Assembly: GCF_026011795.1 (NCBI RefSeq)
Contig: NZ_BRVS01000008.1
Span: forward strand, 186,001-250,000
Direction of reading: 5' to 3'
From: Arthrobacter mangrovi
GTDB taxonomy: Bacteria > Actinomycetota > Actinomycetes > Actinomycetales > Micrococcaceae
Length of the DNA stretch: 64,000 nucleotides
A model generated the notes under the pieces. That model saw only the letters and a list, made by a program, of their open reading frames with translations, made no database searches and had not been told where the DNA came from. Shown piece after piece: positions 6,150 to 32,706 of the stretch; the first letter of the stretch is position 1; each line of letters starts with the position of its first letter. A program made the translations under genes and the position numbers.

Positions 6150-6180
6150 AGAGCCCCGCAGAATCATCCTGCGGGGCTCT
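6150..6180. terminator. Bidirectional intrinsic terminator
   Basis: A perfect 12-bp stem (AGAGCCCCGCAG paired with CTGCGGGGCTCT) with a 7-nt loop lies between the convergent PLDc_N gene and ccsB. A pyrimidine-rich stretch follows on the plus strand and a T-rich stretch (CTTGGTTTG) on the minus strand, so it can serve both directions. Confidence 0.9.
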
Positions 6181-15556: not shown

Positions 15557-16666
15557 CTACGAGCGCCCTGCCGCTGCCCGGCTTGCGGCCGCCAGCTGCT
15601 CGAGGACCAGATCGGTCGTCTCCCACCCCATGCAGGCGTCCGTCACGCTCCGGCCGTAGACGAGCTCAGCCTCTCCCCTGGCCACCTCGGCGACGTCCAG
15701 CTTCTGCGCTCCGCCGGACAGGAAGCTCTCCAGCATGACGCCGGCCAGAGCACCGGTCCCGGCCTCGTCGGCCTCAAGCTGGGCAGCAAGCTCCAGCGCG
15801 ACTTCGGCCTGCCGGTGGTGGCTCTTTCCGCTGTTGGCATGGCTTGCGTCGACAATGACCCGCGGGTTCACACCCGCGGCGGCCAGTTGTCGGGAAGCCT
15901 CGAGCACGCTGGCCGCAGAGTAGTTCGGGCCGCCGCTGCCGCCACGCAGGATCAGGTGAGTGTCCGGGTTGCCGGGCGCCGCCACCACAGCCGCGCGCCC
16001 GTCGTCGTCCATGCCGAGGTAGGCCTGTTCCGCCGCTGCCGCCAGGCATGCGTCGACCGCAACCTGGATGCCGCCGTCGGTCCCGTTCTTGAAACCGACG
16101 GGCAGCGGCAGGCCCGCGGCGAGCTGCCGGTGGATCTGGCTCTCGGTGGTGCGGGCCCCGATAGCGCCCCAGCTGACCAGGTCGGCGAGGTAGGGGGCGC
16201 TGACCGGCTCGAGGAACTCGGTCGCGACGGGCAGGCCCAGCGCCGTCACATCCAGCAGGAAACGGCGCGCCGTGCGCAGTCCGGCCGCAACGTCGTGGGA
16301 GCCGTCCAGGTGCGGGTCGTTGACCAGGCCCTTCCAGCCAACGGTGGTGCGCGGCTTCTCGAAGTACGTCCGCATCACCACCAGCAGGTCGGCGCTGTGC
16401 CGCCGGGCCGCCTCCGCCAGCCGGGCGGCGTAGTCCAGCCCGGCCTTCGGATCATGGATCGAGCAGGGTCCTGCGATCACGAGCAGCCGGTCATCTAGTC
16501 CGTCGAGGATCGCCCGGATCCCCGTGCGTCCGCGTTCGACGGCGGCGATCGCCCCGGGCGCCGCCGGCAGTTCCGCCGTCAGCTCCCCCGGCGAGGGCAG
16601 CGCGCTGAACGTCGCGGCGCCGGTCGAAGGGCTGTGCGTGGCAGTGAGGCTGGATAGTGTCGGCAT
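15557..16666 (-). CDS. aroG: Class I DAHP synthase (3-deoxy-7-phosphoheptulonate synthase)
   Basis: This enzyme joins phosphoenolpyruvate and erythrose 4-phosphate in the first step of the shikimate pathway. The 369-residue protein is a class I (AroF/AroG/AroH-type) enzyme: LVIAGPCSIHDPK near 62-74, VMRTYFEKPRTTVGWKG around 96-112 with the PEP-binding residues, GARTTESQIHRQLA, PVGFKNGTDG, ILRGGSGGPNY and DASHANSGKSH with metal ligands. Which amino acid inhibits it cannot be read from sequence. The symbol aroG is used generically. Upstream lies a leader peptide rich in Trp and Tyr codons and an apparent attenuator (separate entries), so expression is probably tied to aromatic amino acid supply. 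SD-like CGGGAAC precedes the ATG. Confidence 0.95.
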   Translation of the reverse strand: MPTLSSLTATHSPSTGAATFSALPSPGELTAELPAAPGAIAAVERGRTGIRAILDGLDDRLLVIAGPCSIHDPKAGLDYAARLAEAARRHSADLLVVMRTYFEKPRTTVGWKGLVNDPHLDGSHDVAAGLRTARRFLLDVTALGLPVATEFLEPVSAPYLADLVSWGAIGARTTESQIHRQLAAGLPLPVGFKNGTDGGIQVAVDACLAAAAEQAYLGMDDDGRAAVVAAPGNPDTHLILRGGSGGPNYSAASVLEASRQLAAAGVNPRVIVDASHANSGKSHHRQAEVALELAAQLEADEAGTGALAGVMLESFLSGGAQKLDVAEVARGEAELVYGRSVTDACMGWETTDLVLEQLAAASRAAAGRS

Positions 16667-16670
16667 GTGA

Positions 16671-16714
16671 GTTCCCGTCTGGATAATGGCGGGAACGGTA
16701 GCCCAGAACCCGCC
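16671..16714 (-). promoter_or_regulatory. Mutually exclusive hairpins controlling the DAHP synthase ribosome-binding site
   Basis: On the transcript GGCGGG (16714-16709) can pair with CCCGCC (16693-16688). Alternatively GTTCCCG (16696-16690) can pair with CGGGAAC (16677-16671), which is the only Shine-Dalgarno-like sequence before the ATG at 16666. Both pairings use the same CCCG bases, so forming one frees or hides the ribosome-binding site. This is read from complementarity only. Confidence 0.5.
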
Positions 16715-16727
16715 GTGGAAATGGCGA

Positions 16728-16839
16728 AGGGCAGAGAATGATCTCTGCCCTGTTGGCTCTGGAGGTTCGTTGGATGCGTATGCCGCTAGGCAGTCACGTT
16801 AGGCCCCTCCAGAGCCAACGGAAAATACGCATACCAACG
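16728..16839 (-). promoter_or_regulatory. Putative attenuator of DAHP synthase gene: interleaved inverted repeats and hairpin
   Basis: Transcript order is segment 1 (16839-16826), 2 (16819-16806), 1' (16780-16768), 2' (16765-16752). Segments 1 and 1' pair over 13 bp with one bulge; 2 and 2' pair over 14 perfect bp. The pairs are interleaved, so they should be mutually exclusive (loops are too short for a simple pseudoknot). Segment 1 covers the Trp-Tyr-Ala-Tyr codons of the leader peptide. Directly after 2' is a third hairpin with a 9-bp stem and 6-nt loop (AGGGCAGAG, ATCATT, CTCTGCCCT; 16751-16728). The layout is what leader-peptide attenuation needs. Confidence 0.75.
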
Positions 16840-16848
16840 GGTTGTCAT
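16786..16848 (-). CDS. Aromatic leader peptide of DAHP synthase gene
   Basis: A 20-residue open frame upstream of the DAHP synthase gene, with Trp5, Tyr6, Tyr8 and Phe9 in the run RWYAYF. Trp, Tyr and Phe are exactly the end products of the pathway that DAHP synthase opens. Tyr and Phe are written TAT, TAT and TTT although this genome strongly prefers TAC and TTC, which would favour ribosome pausing. A TACCCT box ends 6 nt before the ATG, so the message is probably leaderless and starts with the peptide. The stop TAG lies 5 nt before pairing segment 1'. No homology can be claimed for such a short peptide; the evidence is composition, position and overlap with the RNA structure. Confidence 0.78.
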   Translation of the reverse strand: MTTRWYAYFPLALEGPNVTA

Positions 16849-16854
16849 GTAGCG

Positions 16855-16860
16855 AGGGTA
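16855..16860 (-). promoter_or_regulatory. Probable -10 box for leader peptide and DAHP synthase transcript
   Basis: On the minus strand TACCCT ends 6 nt before the leader ATG, in the 63-bp gap after the N-acetylglucosamine kinase-like gene. No good TTGACA-like -35 was seen. Confidence 0.5.
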
Positions 16861-30993: not shown

Positions 30994-32706
30994 CTAGAAC
31001 AGGAAGTACCGCTGGGCCATCGGCAGCGTGCTCGATGGTTCGCAGGTTGCCACTACGCCGTCGACCGTAACGGTGTAGGTTTCAGGGTCCACCTGGATGT
31101 CCGGTGTCTCCCCGTTGAACTTCAGGTCGGATTTGGCGAGGTTCCGGATGCCGTGGGCCGGGCGGACGGTGCGGCGCAGCTGCAGCCGTTCGGGGATGCC
31201 TTCGTCGATGGCGATCTGCGGCAGGAAAGTGATCGAGGACGAGTGCACCGCACGGCCCATGGCACCAAAGTTGGGCCGCAGCGTGCGCGGCTGCGGCGTC
31301 GGGATGGAGGCGTTGGCGTCGCCCATGATGGACTGCACGATCTGCCCGCCCTTGATGATCATTTCCGGCTTGACCCCGAAGAAGGCCGGGTCCCAGAGCA
31401 CCAGGTCGGCGAACTTTCCTACTTCGACGCTGCCGACCGAGTCCGCGATGCCGTGCGCGAGTGCCGGGTTGATCGTGTACTTGGCGACGTAGCGCTTGAG
31501 CCGGAAGTTGTCCCCGGTTTCGGGATCCTGCTCGAACTTGCCGCGCTGGCGCTTCATCGAATCAGCCACCTGCCAGGTGCGCAGGATGGTCTCGCCGACG
31601 CGTCCCATGGCCTGGGCATCCGAACTGGTGATCGAGAAGACGCCGAGATCGTGCAGCACGTCTTCCGCGGCGATGGTTTCCTTGCGGATGCGCGAGTCCG
31701 CAAACGCAACATCCTCGGGGATGTCCGGGTTCAGATGGTGGCAGACCATCAGCATGTCCAGATGCTCGTCGATGGTGTTGCGGGTGTACGGCAGCGTGGG
31801 ATTCGTCGAGGCCGGCAGGACGTTGGGAAGCCCTGCCATCCGGATGATGTCCGGGGCGTGCCCGCCGCCGGCGCCTTCGGTATGGAAGGTGTGGATGACC
31901 CTACCGCCGATGGCCCGGATCGTGTCTTCCACGAAGCCGCATTCGTTGAGGGTGTCGGTATGGATAGCGACCTGCACATCGAACTCGTCCGCGATGCGCA
32001 GCGACATGTCGATCGAAGAGGCCGTGGCACCCCAGTCCTCATGCACCTTCAGGCCGATGGCGCCGGCCCTGATCTGCTCCGCCAGCGGTCCGCGCGCGCT
32101 GGCGTGGCCTTTGCCGAAGAGACCGATGTTGATCGGAAGGTCGTCGACTGCCTGCAGCATCCGGCCGATGTGCCAGGCGCCCGGGGTTACGGTGGTCGCC
32201 TTGCTCCCTTCGCTCGGTCCGGTCCCTCCGCCGATCAGCGTGGTGATGCCATTGGCCAGCGCCACGGGCACCTGGTCGGGGCTGACAAAGTGGATGTGGG
32301 TGTCGATCCCGCCGGCGGTGAGGATCTTGTGCTCCCCCGCAATCACGTCGGTGGAGACACCGATGGTGATGTCGACGCCGTCGGAAATGTCGGGGTTGCC
32401 GGCCTTGCCGATCTTGAAGATGTGTCCGTCGCGCAGGGCGACGTCGGCCTTGTAGATCCCGGTGTAGTCCAGCACCACGACGTTGGTGATGACGGTGTCC
32501 GGAATATCCTGGTCCCGGGTCAGCCGGCCGTTCTGGCCCATGCCGTCCCGGATCACCTTGCCGCCGCCGAAGACCGCTTCTTCGCCGTAGCGGGTGTAGT
32601 CGTGTTCGATTTCCAGCAACAGCTCCGTGTCCGCCAGCCGGATGGCATCCCCTGTGGTGGGCCCGTACATCTCGGCGTAGTGCCTGCGGCTCATTTCGAA
32701 GCTCAT
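30994..32706 (-). CDS. ureC: Urease subunit alpha UreC
   Basis: The catalytic subunit, hydrolysing urea to ammonia and carbamate at a di-nickel site. All active-site residues are present: His137 and His139 in GIDTHIHF, the carbamylated Lys220 and His222 in [12 protein letters not shown], His249 in QVAIHTDT, His275 in [15 protein letters not shown], the flap Cys322-His323 in [20 protein letters not shown], and Asp363 in [14 protein letters not shown]. The 570-residue length is standard. Its ATG overlaps the ureB stop by 4 nt. Confidence 0.97.

Follow-up and report, generated by a model that had tools for sequence, protein, structure and literature searches.

A putative leader-peptide attenuator rich in aromatic codons, conserved upstream of class I DAHP synthase genes in Arthrobacter and other members of its class

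A putative ribosome-operated attenuator was located in the window (the whole stretch of Arthrobacter mangrovi DNA analysed, 64,000 nucleotides), in front of a class I DAHP synthase gene. Judged from its anatomy and its conservation, the synthase would be made chiefly in cells running low on charged tRNA for Trp, Tyr or Phe, a reading to which we give a probability of about 0.85. The attenuator observation itself is real and far from chance: 16651-16860 had a folding energy of -90.8 kcal/mol, whereas 200 shuffles averaged -59.7 (sd 4.2; z -7.4) and none of them folded as well. Comparison among relatives showed that the leader ORF, the helices 2:2', 2':3, T and 3:4, a widespread 1:1' complementarity and the linkage to the synthase gene are conserved, and that segment 2' is common to two exclusive partners. 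The features, in the order in which they would be transcribed, were:

16855-16860, minus strand: TACCCT, a -10-like box (TANNNT), six bases 5' of the leader ATG
ATG at 16848 to TAG at 16788-16786, minus strand: leader ORF MTTRWYAYFPLALEGPNVTA, 20 codons, read directly
16825-16839, minus strand: segment 1, overlapping the Trp/Tyr codons; partner 1'
16822-16836, minus strand: putative sensor codons TGG TAT GCG TAT TTT (Trp-Tyr-Ala-Tyr-Phe), read directly
16806-16819, minus strand: segment 2, in the last third of the leader; partner 2'
16768-16782, minus strand: segment 1', directly 3' of the leader stop
16752-16765, minus strand: segment 2', common to two pairings, with 2 (proposed ON) or 3 (proposed OFF)
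16728-16751, minus strand: T, a terminator-like hairpin with a perfect 10-bp stem, abutting 2'
16727-16717, minus strand: tail of T, TCGCCATTTCC, 3' of the T stem
16711-16726, minus strand: small hairpin CGCC-loop-GGCG, filling with T a three-way junction closed by 2':3
16703-16714, minus strand: segment 3, GGCGGGTTCTGG; pairing with 2' through GGTTCTGG and with 4 through GGCGGG
16688-16696, minus strand: segment 4, GTTCCCGCC; partner 3 or 5
16671-16677, minus strand: segment 5, CGGGAAC, SD-like; partner GTTCCCG within segment 4
15557-16666, minus strand: class I DAHP synthase, 369 aa (Pfam PF00793 DAHP_synth_1, E 5.5e-80)

Pairing 1:1' (16839-16825 with 16782-16768) was 14 bp with a one-base bulge, and pairing 2:2' (16819-16806 with 16765-16752) was a perfect 14 bp. 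The order along the RNA was 1-2-1'-2', i.e. the two long pairings were interleaved, as the initial annotation of this DNA had stated. That annotation had given the pairing on the WYAY codons as 13 bp and a third hairpin as 9 bp; both were found, the overlap with the codons included, and only their lengths had to be corrected, the third hairpin being T with its 10-bp stem (16751-16728). An alternative that it had lacked was the pairing of GGTTCTGG (16710-16703) with CCAGAGCC of 2', and the TACCCT box was likewise absent from it. Further downstream, its two mutually exclusive hairpins, GGCGGG/CCCGCC (3:4) and GTTCCCG/CGGGAAC (4:5, covering the SD-like CGGGAAC), could both form. The small hairpin appeared in the window's fold when the leader was blocked.

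The leader peptide MTTRWYAYFPLALEGPNVTA carries Trp5, Tyr6, Tyr8 and Phe9 and was present exactly as first described (16848-16786, minus strand, Trp5-Tyr6-Ala-Tyr8-Phe9); with its W-Y-A-Y-F run it is a short ORF rich in codons for the pathway products. The identification of the gene behind it as a class I DAHP synthase was borne out by the Pfam match. To compare relatives, a named set of 80 loci (the best 80 of 541) was taken from a synthase search, and a leader was scored by three clustered aromatic residues, by which poorer leaders could be missed. Leader ORFs with clustered aromatic codons were found upstream in 66 of these 80 loci, and with the window they made up 67 sequences. The leader was MTNRWYAYFSLALEGPASN in most Arthrobacter and relatives, RWYAYFESALEGP in most Microbacterium, RWFTYAMSAPEGP in Brachybacterium, YWRFISAPGGA in Mycolicibacterium, and VQRWYRFT or similar in Pseudonocardia, Actinomycetospora and Asanoa. 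Such a leader was lacking at 14 of the best 80 loci (L052, L060, L062, L063, L066 and L072-L080), three of which were labelled actinobacterial (L052, L078 and L079). Other aromatic-rich short ORFs (YWYRL, WFYYF, WFPLFF), unlike the window leader, lay upstream at L066, L075 and L080, labelled Pseudogemmobacter and Aeromonas. A contig titled Sporosarcina beigongshangi (L022) carried an Arthrobacter-type synthase and leader; its label or assembly may be wrong.

A TANNNT box was present 6-8 nt 5' of the leader start in 66 of the 67 sequences, the exception being L038. The leader is therefore most likely translated from the extreme 5' end of the RNA, and the window's leader transcript is probably leaderless, its transcription start being placed by the position of the box. 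Codon choice in the leaders was also distinctive. Tyr and Phe were written TAT 114 : TAC 6 and TTT 61 : TTC 11 in the 67 leaders, and TAT 2 : TAC 311 and TTT 6 : TTC 450 in the synthase genes behind them. Five genes of the window, the synthase among them, gave TAT 2 : TAC 37 and TTT 1 : TTC 48, in line with the earlier remark that TAT and TTT are unusual in this genome. With their synonymous bias, the putative sensor codons are a natural case in which to see whether leader-peptide switches are tuned by rare codons.

Conservation of the RNA was followed on two alignments. A1 held 36 sequences: the window and 35 of the 66 leader loci, left after near-duplicates and the most divergent sequences had been removed. 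For the structure 2:2' + T + 3:4, 95.2% of its cells were paired against 91.2% in shuffles (at most 61% with slid partners), 52 cells had changed on both sides against 15.3, and 9 pairs showed two-sided change against 5.9. For 2':3 + T + small hairpin, 96.5% were paired (slid, at most 61%) and 39 cells had two-sided change against 10.1; the 2':3 helix itself contributed one such pair, and T held most of them. The number of further standard pair types was not above shuffles for either structure on A1. A4 consisted of 40 matches fitted to a covariance model, hence favoured by the model; 94% of its cells were paired (slid, at most 52%), and 24 of its 33 pairs showed compensatory changes, against 14.4 in shuffles. 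Helix by helix, 2:2' was paired in 97% of cells (36 sequences) with compensatory changes at 7 of its 14 pairs (40 sequences), and T had them at 6 of 10 pairs on A1 and 8 of 10 on A4. Paired cells amounted to 97% for 2':3 (36 sequences), to 97% for the small hairpin, where three sequences had U-A for C-G, and to 91% for 3:4 (36 sequences), where one pair was A-U instead of G-C in five sequences.

Since pairing could be an artefact of alignment, an alignment-free duplex test was also employed, a pass meaning that no more than 5 of 100 shuffles scored equally well. Six of the 67 sequences, in which the script found no T, were dropped. Passes among the remaining 61 were 56 for 2:2', 46 for 2':3, 39 for 1:1' and 23 for 4:5, so that 1:1' failed in 22 and 2':3 in 15. 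T was misplaced by the script in six more sequences (L039, L065 and L067-L070), which passed for no pairing apart from 2:2' in L069; with these six removed, the counts were 55, 46, 39 and 23 of 55. The 4:5 pairing of the window did not pass (26 of 100 shuffles as good), and this SD helix is weakly supported in relatives. Mutually exclusive pairings with compensatory changes were thus found for 2:2' and 2':3 by covariation, and 1:1' recurred by the shuffle test (39 of 61). The comparison that the initial annotation had proposed as its own check, covariation and conserved aromatic codons among relatives, came out in its favour: the pairings covary, and leaders stood at 66 of the best 80 loci.

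The element was then sought with covariance models. A model built from 30 sequences (R1) was run on 245 genomes of the window's family and matched in 101, and the synthase was found in the identical 101. Element and synthase lay on the same contig and strand, 16-154 nt apart, in all 101; the matching biosynthetic gene was thus directly downstream in every element-bearing family genome. The window's own genome held one full copy and two partial reverse-strand echoes of its own hairpins. Its synthase was the only PF00793 match found there; the same genome encodes a class II DAHP synthase (G000:C21:8173-9465, L195; PF01474, E 1.6e-200), the class I enzyme thus being a second one. A broader model (R2), run on 394 genomes of the class, matched in 68 at E 0.001, and 78 of the 394 had the synthase. 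In the 46 genomes of this sample with both, the two were adjacent in every case (19-185 nt). No R2 match was present in 32 of the 78 synthase-bearing genomes. Twenty of these 32 were inspected: 15 had no such leader, and five had a leader and a shorter version that, by eye, has no T, 2' and 3 making a single hairpin. The T-less version was seen by eye at L157-L160 and L162, and also at L065 and L067-L070, with leaders such as VQRVYFWFSKPALGG. In a sample of the phylum, 3 of 198 genomes matched at E 1e-5, all inside the class. At G091:C1:2819440-2820491 the synthase match behind the element was split in two adjoining pieces, perhaps by a frameshift or a sequencing error.

Another 22 genomes gave an R2 match but no synthase, and 15 of them were inspected. 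Two matches were false or doubtful: L141 was the terminator of a tRNA operon, and L142 had no aromatic leader by the three-residue criterion. At the other 13 (L118-L122, L124 and L131-L137) the element preceded a degenerate DAHP-synthase/chorismate mutase protein, or a relative matching by its mutase part only. This fusion combines a partial, weak DAHP-synthase domain with a type II chorismate mutase, as seen by Pfam at two loci and by tblastn matches at all 13, and its synthase domain has possibly lost activity. Leaders were counted at 12 of the 13 loci, L124 standing outside the count, with a finder that required TANNNT, so that they are no evidence for the box. Trp occurred in none of the 12, and Phe was present, mostly with Tyr, which fits an enzyme of the Phe/Tyr branch. 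Before the synthase, which serves all three aromatic amino acids, Trp occurred in all 67 leaders of the named set (drawn from the best 80 loci) and in 22 of 34 leaders of the survey, in three of the 22 in the tail only; these counts ignore relatedness.

From this anatomy the following switch is proposed. Transcription would start at the leader ATG, where a ribosome would load directly. With aromatic amino acids plentiful, the ribosome would run through the leader and segment 1 would pair with 1'; the loop with segment 2 would then be tied up, and 2' would pair with 3 in a three-way junction enclosing T (OFF). In a shortage, the ribosome would stall on the TGG, TAT or TTT codons and, to judge by position, mask segment 1, so that segment 2 would be free to pair with 2' and 2':3 could not form (ON). 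Being rare among synonymous codons, TAT and TTT may make the ribosome pause longer. The pairing of 2' with either 2 or 3 would thus make a ribosome-controlled switch. That a stalled ribosome frees segment 2 for 2' had already been suggested, and it fits the anatomy of the segments. The accompanying proposal that 2:2' alters the downstream folding did not hold as worded, 2:2' having no base in common with the next hairpin; a link does exist through 2':3. Folding with the leader blocked gave the three-way junction of 2':3, T and the small hairpin in 12 of 14 sequences, but not in L040 or L047. The ribosome-free predicted fold contained 2:2' in the window and the Arthrobacter-type sequences examined, and 1:1' with 2':3 in others (e.g. 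L039, L034 and L058). Since these equilibrium folds differ between sequences, the default state would depend on kinetics.

Other explanations of the conserved element were weighed against a ribosome switch. The peptide itself might act, as an arrest peptide or a small protein, with the C-terminal ALEGP/APGGP as its conserved part, and this motif does recur widely. At L056 and L106, though, a two-base alignment gap shifts the frame of segment 2, so that the peptide ends in ...GSGGA and not in ALEGP while the RNA is retained, and the nucleotides of segment 2 covary with 2'. The tail of the leader is therefore kept as RNA and not as peptide, the aromatic codons being conserved as codons, and an acting peptide is improbable. 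Control by a regulatory protein bound to the RNA, or by a metabolite riboswitch, is even less probable. A strongly conserved RNA with several helices would suit either of these, but the conservation of aromatic codons and of their unusual synonymous choice speaks against them, as does the absence of Trp codons before the chorismate mutase fusion; no Rfam family reached its gathering score in the element.

The step at which a ribosome-operated switch would act is the least certain part of the model; transcription ending at T or immediately beyond it has a slight edge in likelihood over a translational block, and the two may act together. T may be an intrinsic terminator, with the 2:2' helix at its foot deciding whether it closes, a reading that we favour tentatively, at somewhat less than even odds. 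Its 10-bp stem is conserved with compensatory changes, and among 101 usable gaps from 108 sequences the 2:2' helix abutted T at 0 nt in 70, lay within 3 nt in 88 and more than 3 nt away in 13. The tail UCGCCAUUUCC is U-poor in the window, as are those of L121 and L137 in the chorismate-mutase set, which speaks against termination, as does the T-less version seen by eye in some relatives (five of 20 loci, and L065 and L067-L070). In several other chorismate-mutase loci, however, the tail is a U-run (e.g. UUUUUGUUUC at L136). A survey of 30 of the 51 tRNA matches in the window's genome, several of them neighbours in one cluster, found stems of at least 10 bp behind 13 of 30 tRNA genes; 3 of the 13 tails start with TTCG or TTTCG, like that of T, and a similar tail follows the tRNA-Glu of a relative (L141). 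The earlier argument that a missing U-run favours translation is therefore weak. In addition, a review (PMC11802643) states that transcription of C. glutamicum aroF rises on ribosome stalling. If the output were translational only, a reading that we find rather unlikely, OFF 2':3 would keep 3 from 4, so that 4 would hide the SD-like CGGGAAC, and ON would free 3. The exclusive 3:4 and 4:5 can both form in the window, 3:4 is kept in relatives (91% paired, A-U for G-C in five), and 3 and 4 are transcribed before 5, so that kinetics could favour 3:4. Equilibrium folding gave the opposite of simple SD hiding: the mean unpaired probability of SD and start was 0.40 stalled and 0.47 blocked, and among 59 of the 67 sequences SD and start were more open when stalled in 12 only (Wilcoxon p 8e-7). 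Here the OFF proxy was a leader held unpaired, and the test, being of equilibrium only, lowers but does not exclude the translational reading, which was kept as a rival. The claim that the SD-hiding stem favours translational control was not supported by this test, the SD region being no more open, and slightly less, when stalled. By eye, most folds examined also retained 4:5 in both states, and 4:5 passed the duplex test in 23 of 61 sequences only. Less likely still, T may constitutively terminate part of the transcripts, or pause the polymerase, and so yield a separate small leader RNA, regulation falling on the read-through transcripts alone. T does stand in the predicted fold of both switch states, and attenuator transcripts, one of them at aroF, are reported for C. 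glutamicum (PMC4046766), but the flush placement of 2:2' against T would be left unexplained.

No antiterminator overlapping T was found: T begins at 16751, the base after the end of 2' at 16752, and inspection by eye of the window, its relatives and distant versions revealed no competitor for the arms of T. A cruder hairpin scan of the window yielded nothing useful. Three foot-end pairs of 2:2' are not used by 2':3; one of them was compensatory on A1 (U-A in 20 and C-G in 11 of 36 sequences) and two on A4. Together with the flush arrangement, these changes suggest that 2:2' acts on T by its position. One speculative form of this, to which we would give only a small chance, is antitermination by a blocking helix: 2:2', lying flush at the foot of T with no base in common, would stop T from closing fully near the exit channel of RNA polymerase, an arrangement kept from the window's family to the distant chorismate-mutase lineages. 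If true, control would be exerted by a blocking helix and not by competition for the same bases. The flush ON helix and terminator-like hairpin pose a clean mechanistic question.

In the trp and pheA attenuators of E. coli, the stalled ribosome covers one segment so that the next becomes free, and the antiterminator has bases in common with the terminator. Here, by contrast, 2:2' lies flush against T with zero bases in common, and 1:1' and 2:2' appear, unlike the E. coli helices, to exclude each other by interleaving. As far as tested, the element has the sequence hallmarks of leader-peptide attenuators (an ORF with codons for the pathway products, exclusive covarying pairings and a matching gene downstream) and lacks the textbook overlapping antiterminator; it is hence best regarded as a variant of leader-peptide attenuation.

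An aroR leader of aroF was reportedly described in Corynebacterium glutamicum by Neshat and co-workers in 2014. The AroR leader peptide with Phe-Tyr-Phe before aroF is treated in PMC4046766, PMC7356990 and PMC11802643; the control is called translational in PMC7356990 and transcriptional in PMC11802643, which also names the E. coli trp and pheA attenuators. Like the window element, aroR is an actinobacterial aromatic leader before a DAHP synthase gene, and stalling is said to raise expression. The two were compared by description alone: aroR has Phe-Tyr-Phe, Trp is unmentioned and Tyr supply is said to be irrelevant, whereas the window leader has Trp. By these descriptions, the window element may work like aroR. 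The trp attenuators of Corynebacterium and Streptomyces (PMC1262725; S. lividans trpL, PMC8079986) likewise combine a short ORF with regulatory codons, alternative hairpins and a biosynthesis gene downstream, and S. lividans trpL is leaderless, as the window leader probably is; unlike the window element, they sense Trp only and have terminators with poly-U tracts. The motif uORFC-13-1, upstream of aroF in Acholeplasma, is another candidate attenuator with a leader ORF at the gene of a DAHP synthase. It was compared from its description in PMC8632094, where it covers 24 sequences from Acholeplasma and environmental DNA only and includes a terminator stem.

In the 2005 survey of Seliverstov et al. 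(PMC1262725), no conserved RNA structures are reported upstream of the phenylalanine/tyrosine operons of Actinobacteria. The eight leader peptides described for S. lividans in PMC8079986 include none for Phe or Tyr, and the terms aroF, aroG, DAHP, aromatic and chorismate are all absent from the main text of PMC6429828. In the literature covered, in which subscription papers are thinly represented, C. glutamicum was the one actinobacterium met with an aromatic leader ahead of a DAHP synthase gene, which is no proof that others lack it. The element, with matches in many genera of the class, is much wider spread than this single published case. The route to Trp, Tyr, Phe and many actinobacterial aromatic products begins with DAHP synthase, and a conserved attenuator at its gene would be a ready engineering target. 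It would also account for the control of a second DAHP synthase in a genome that has a class II enzyme as well.

The Rfam scan argued against a known Rfam RNA as the identity of the element, its sole weak match there being a snoRNA (E 1.5) on the opposite strand. Elsewhere in the window, RF02514 (5_ureB_sRNA) matched at 32261-32553 on the plus strand with 84.6 bits against a gathering score of 40, unrelated to the element. A perfect 12-bp hairpin, AGAGCCCCGCAG...CTGCGGGGCTCT, perhaps a terminator, lay at 6150-6180, outside the large ORFs as called by a crude script.
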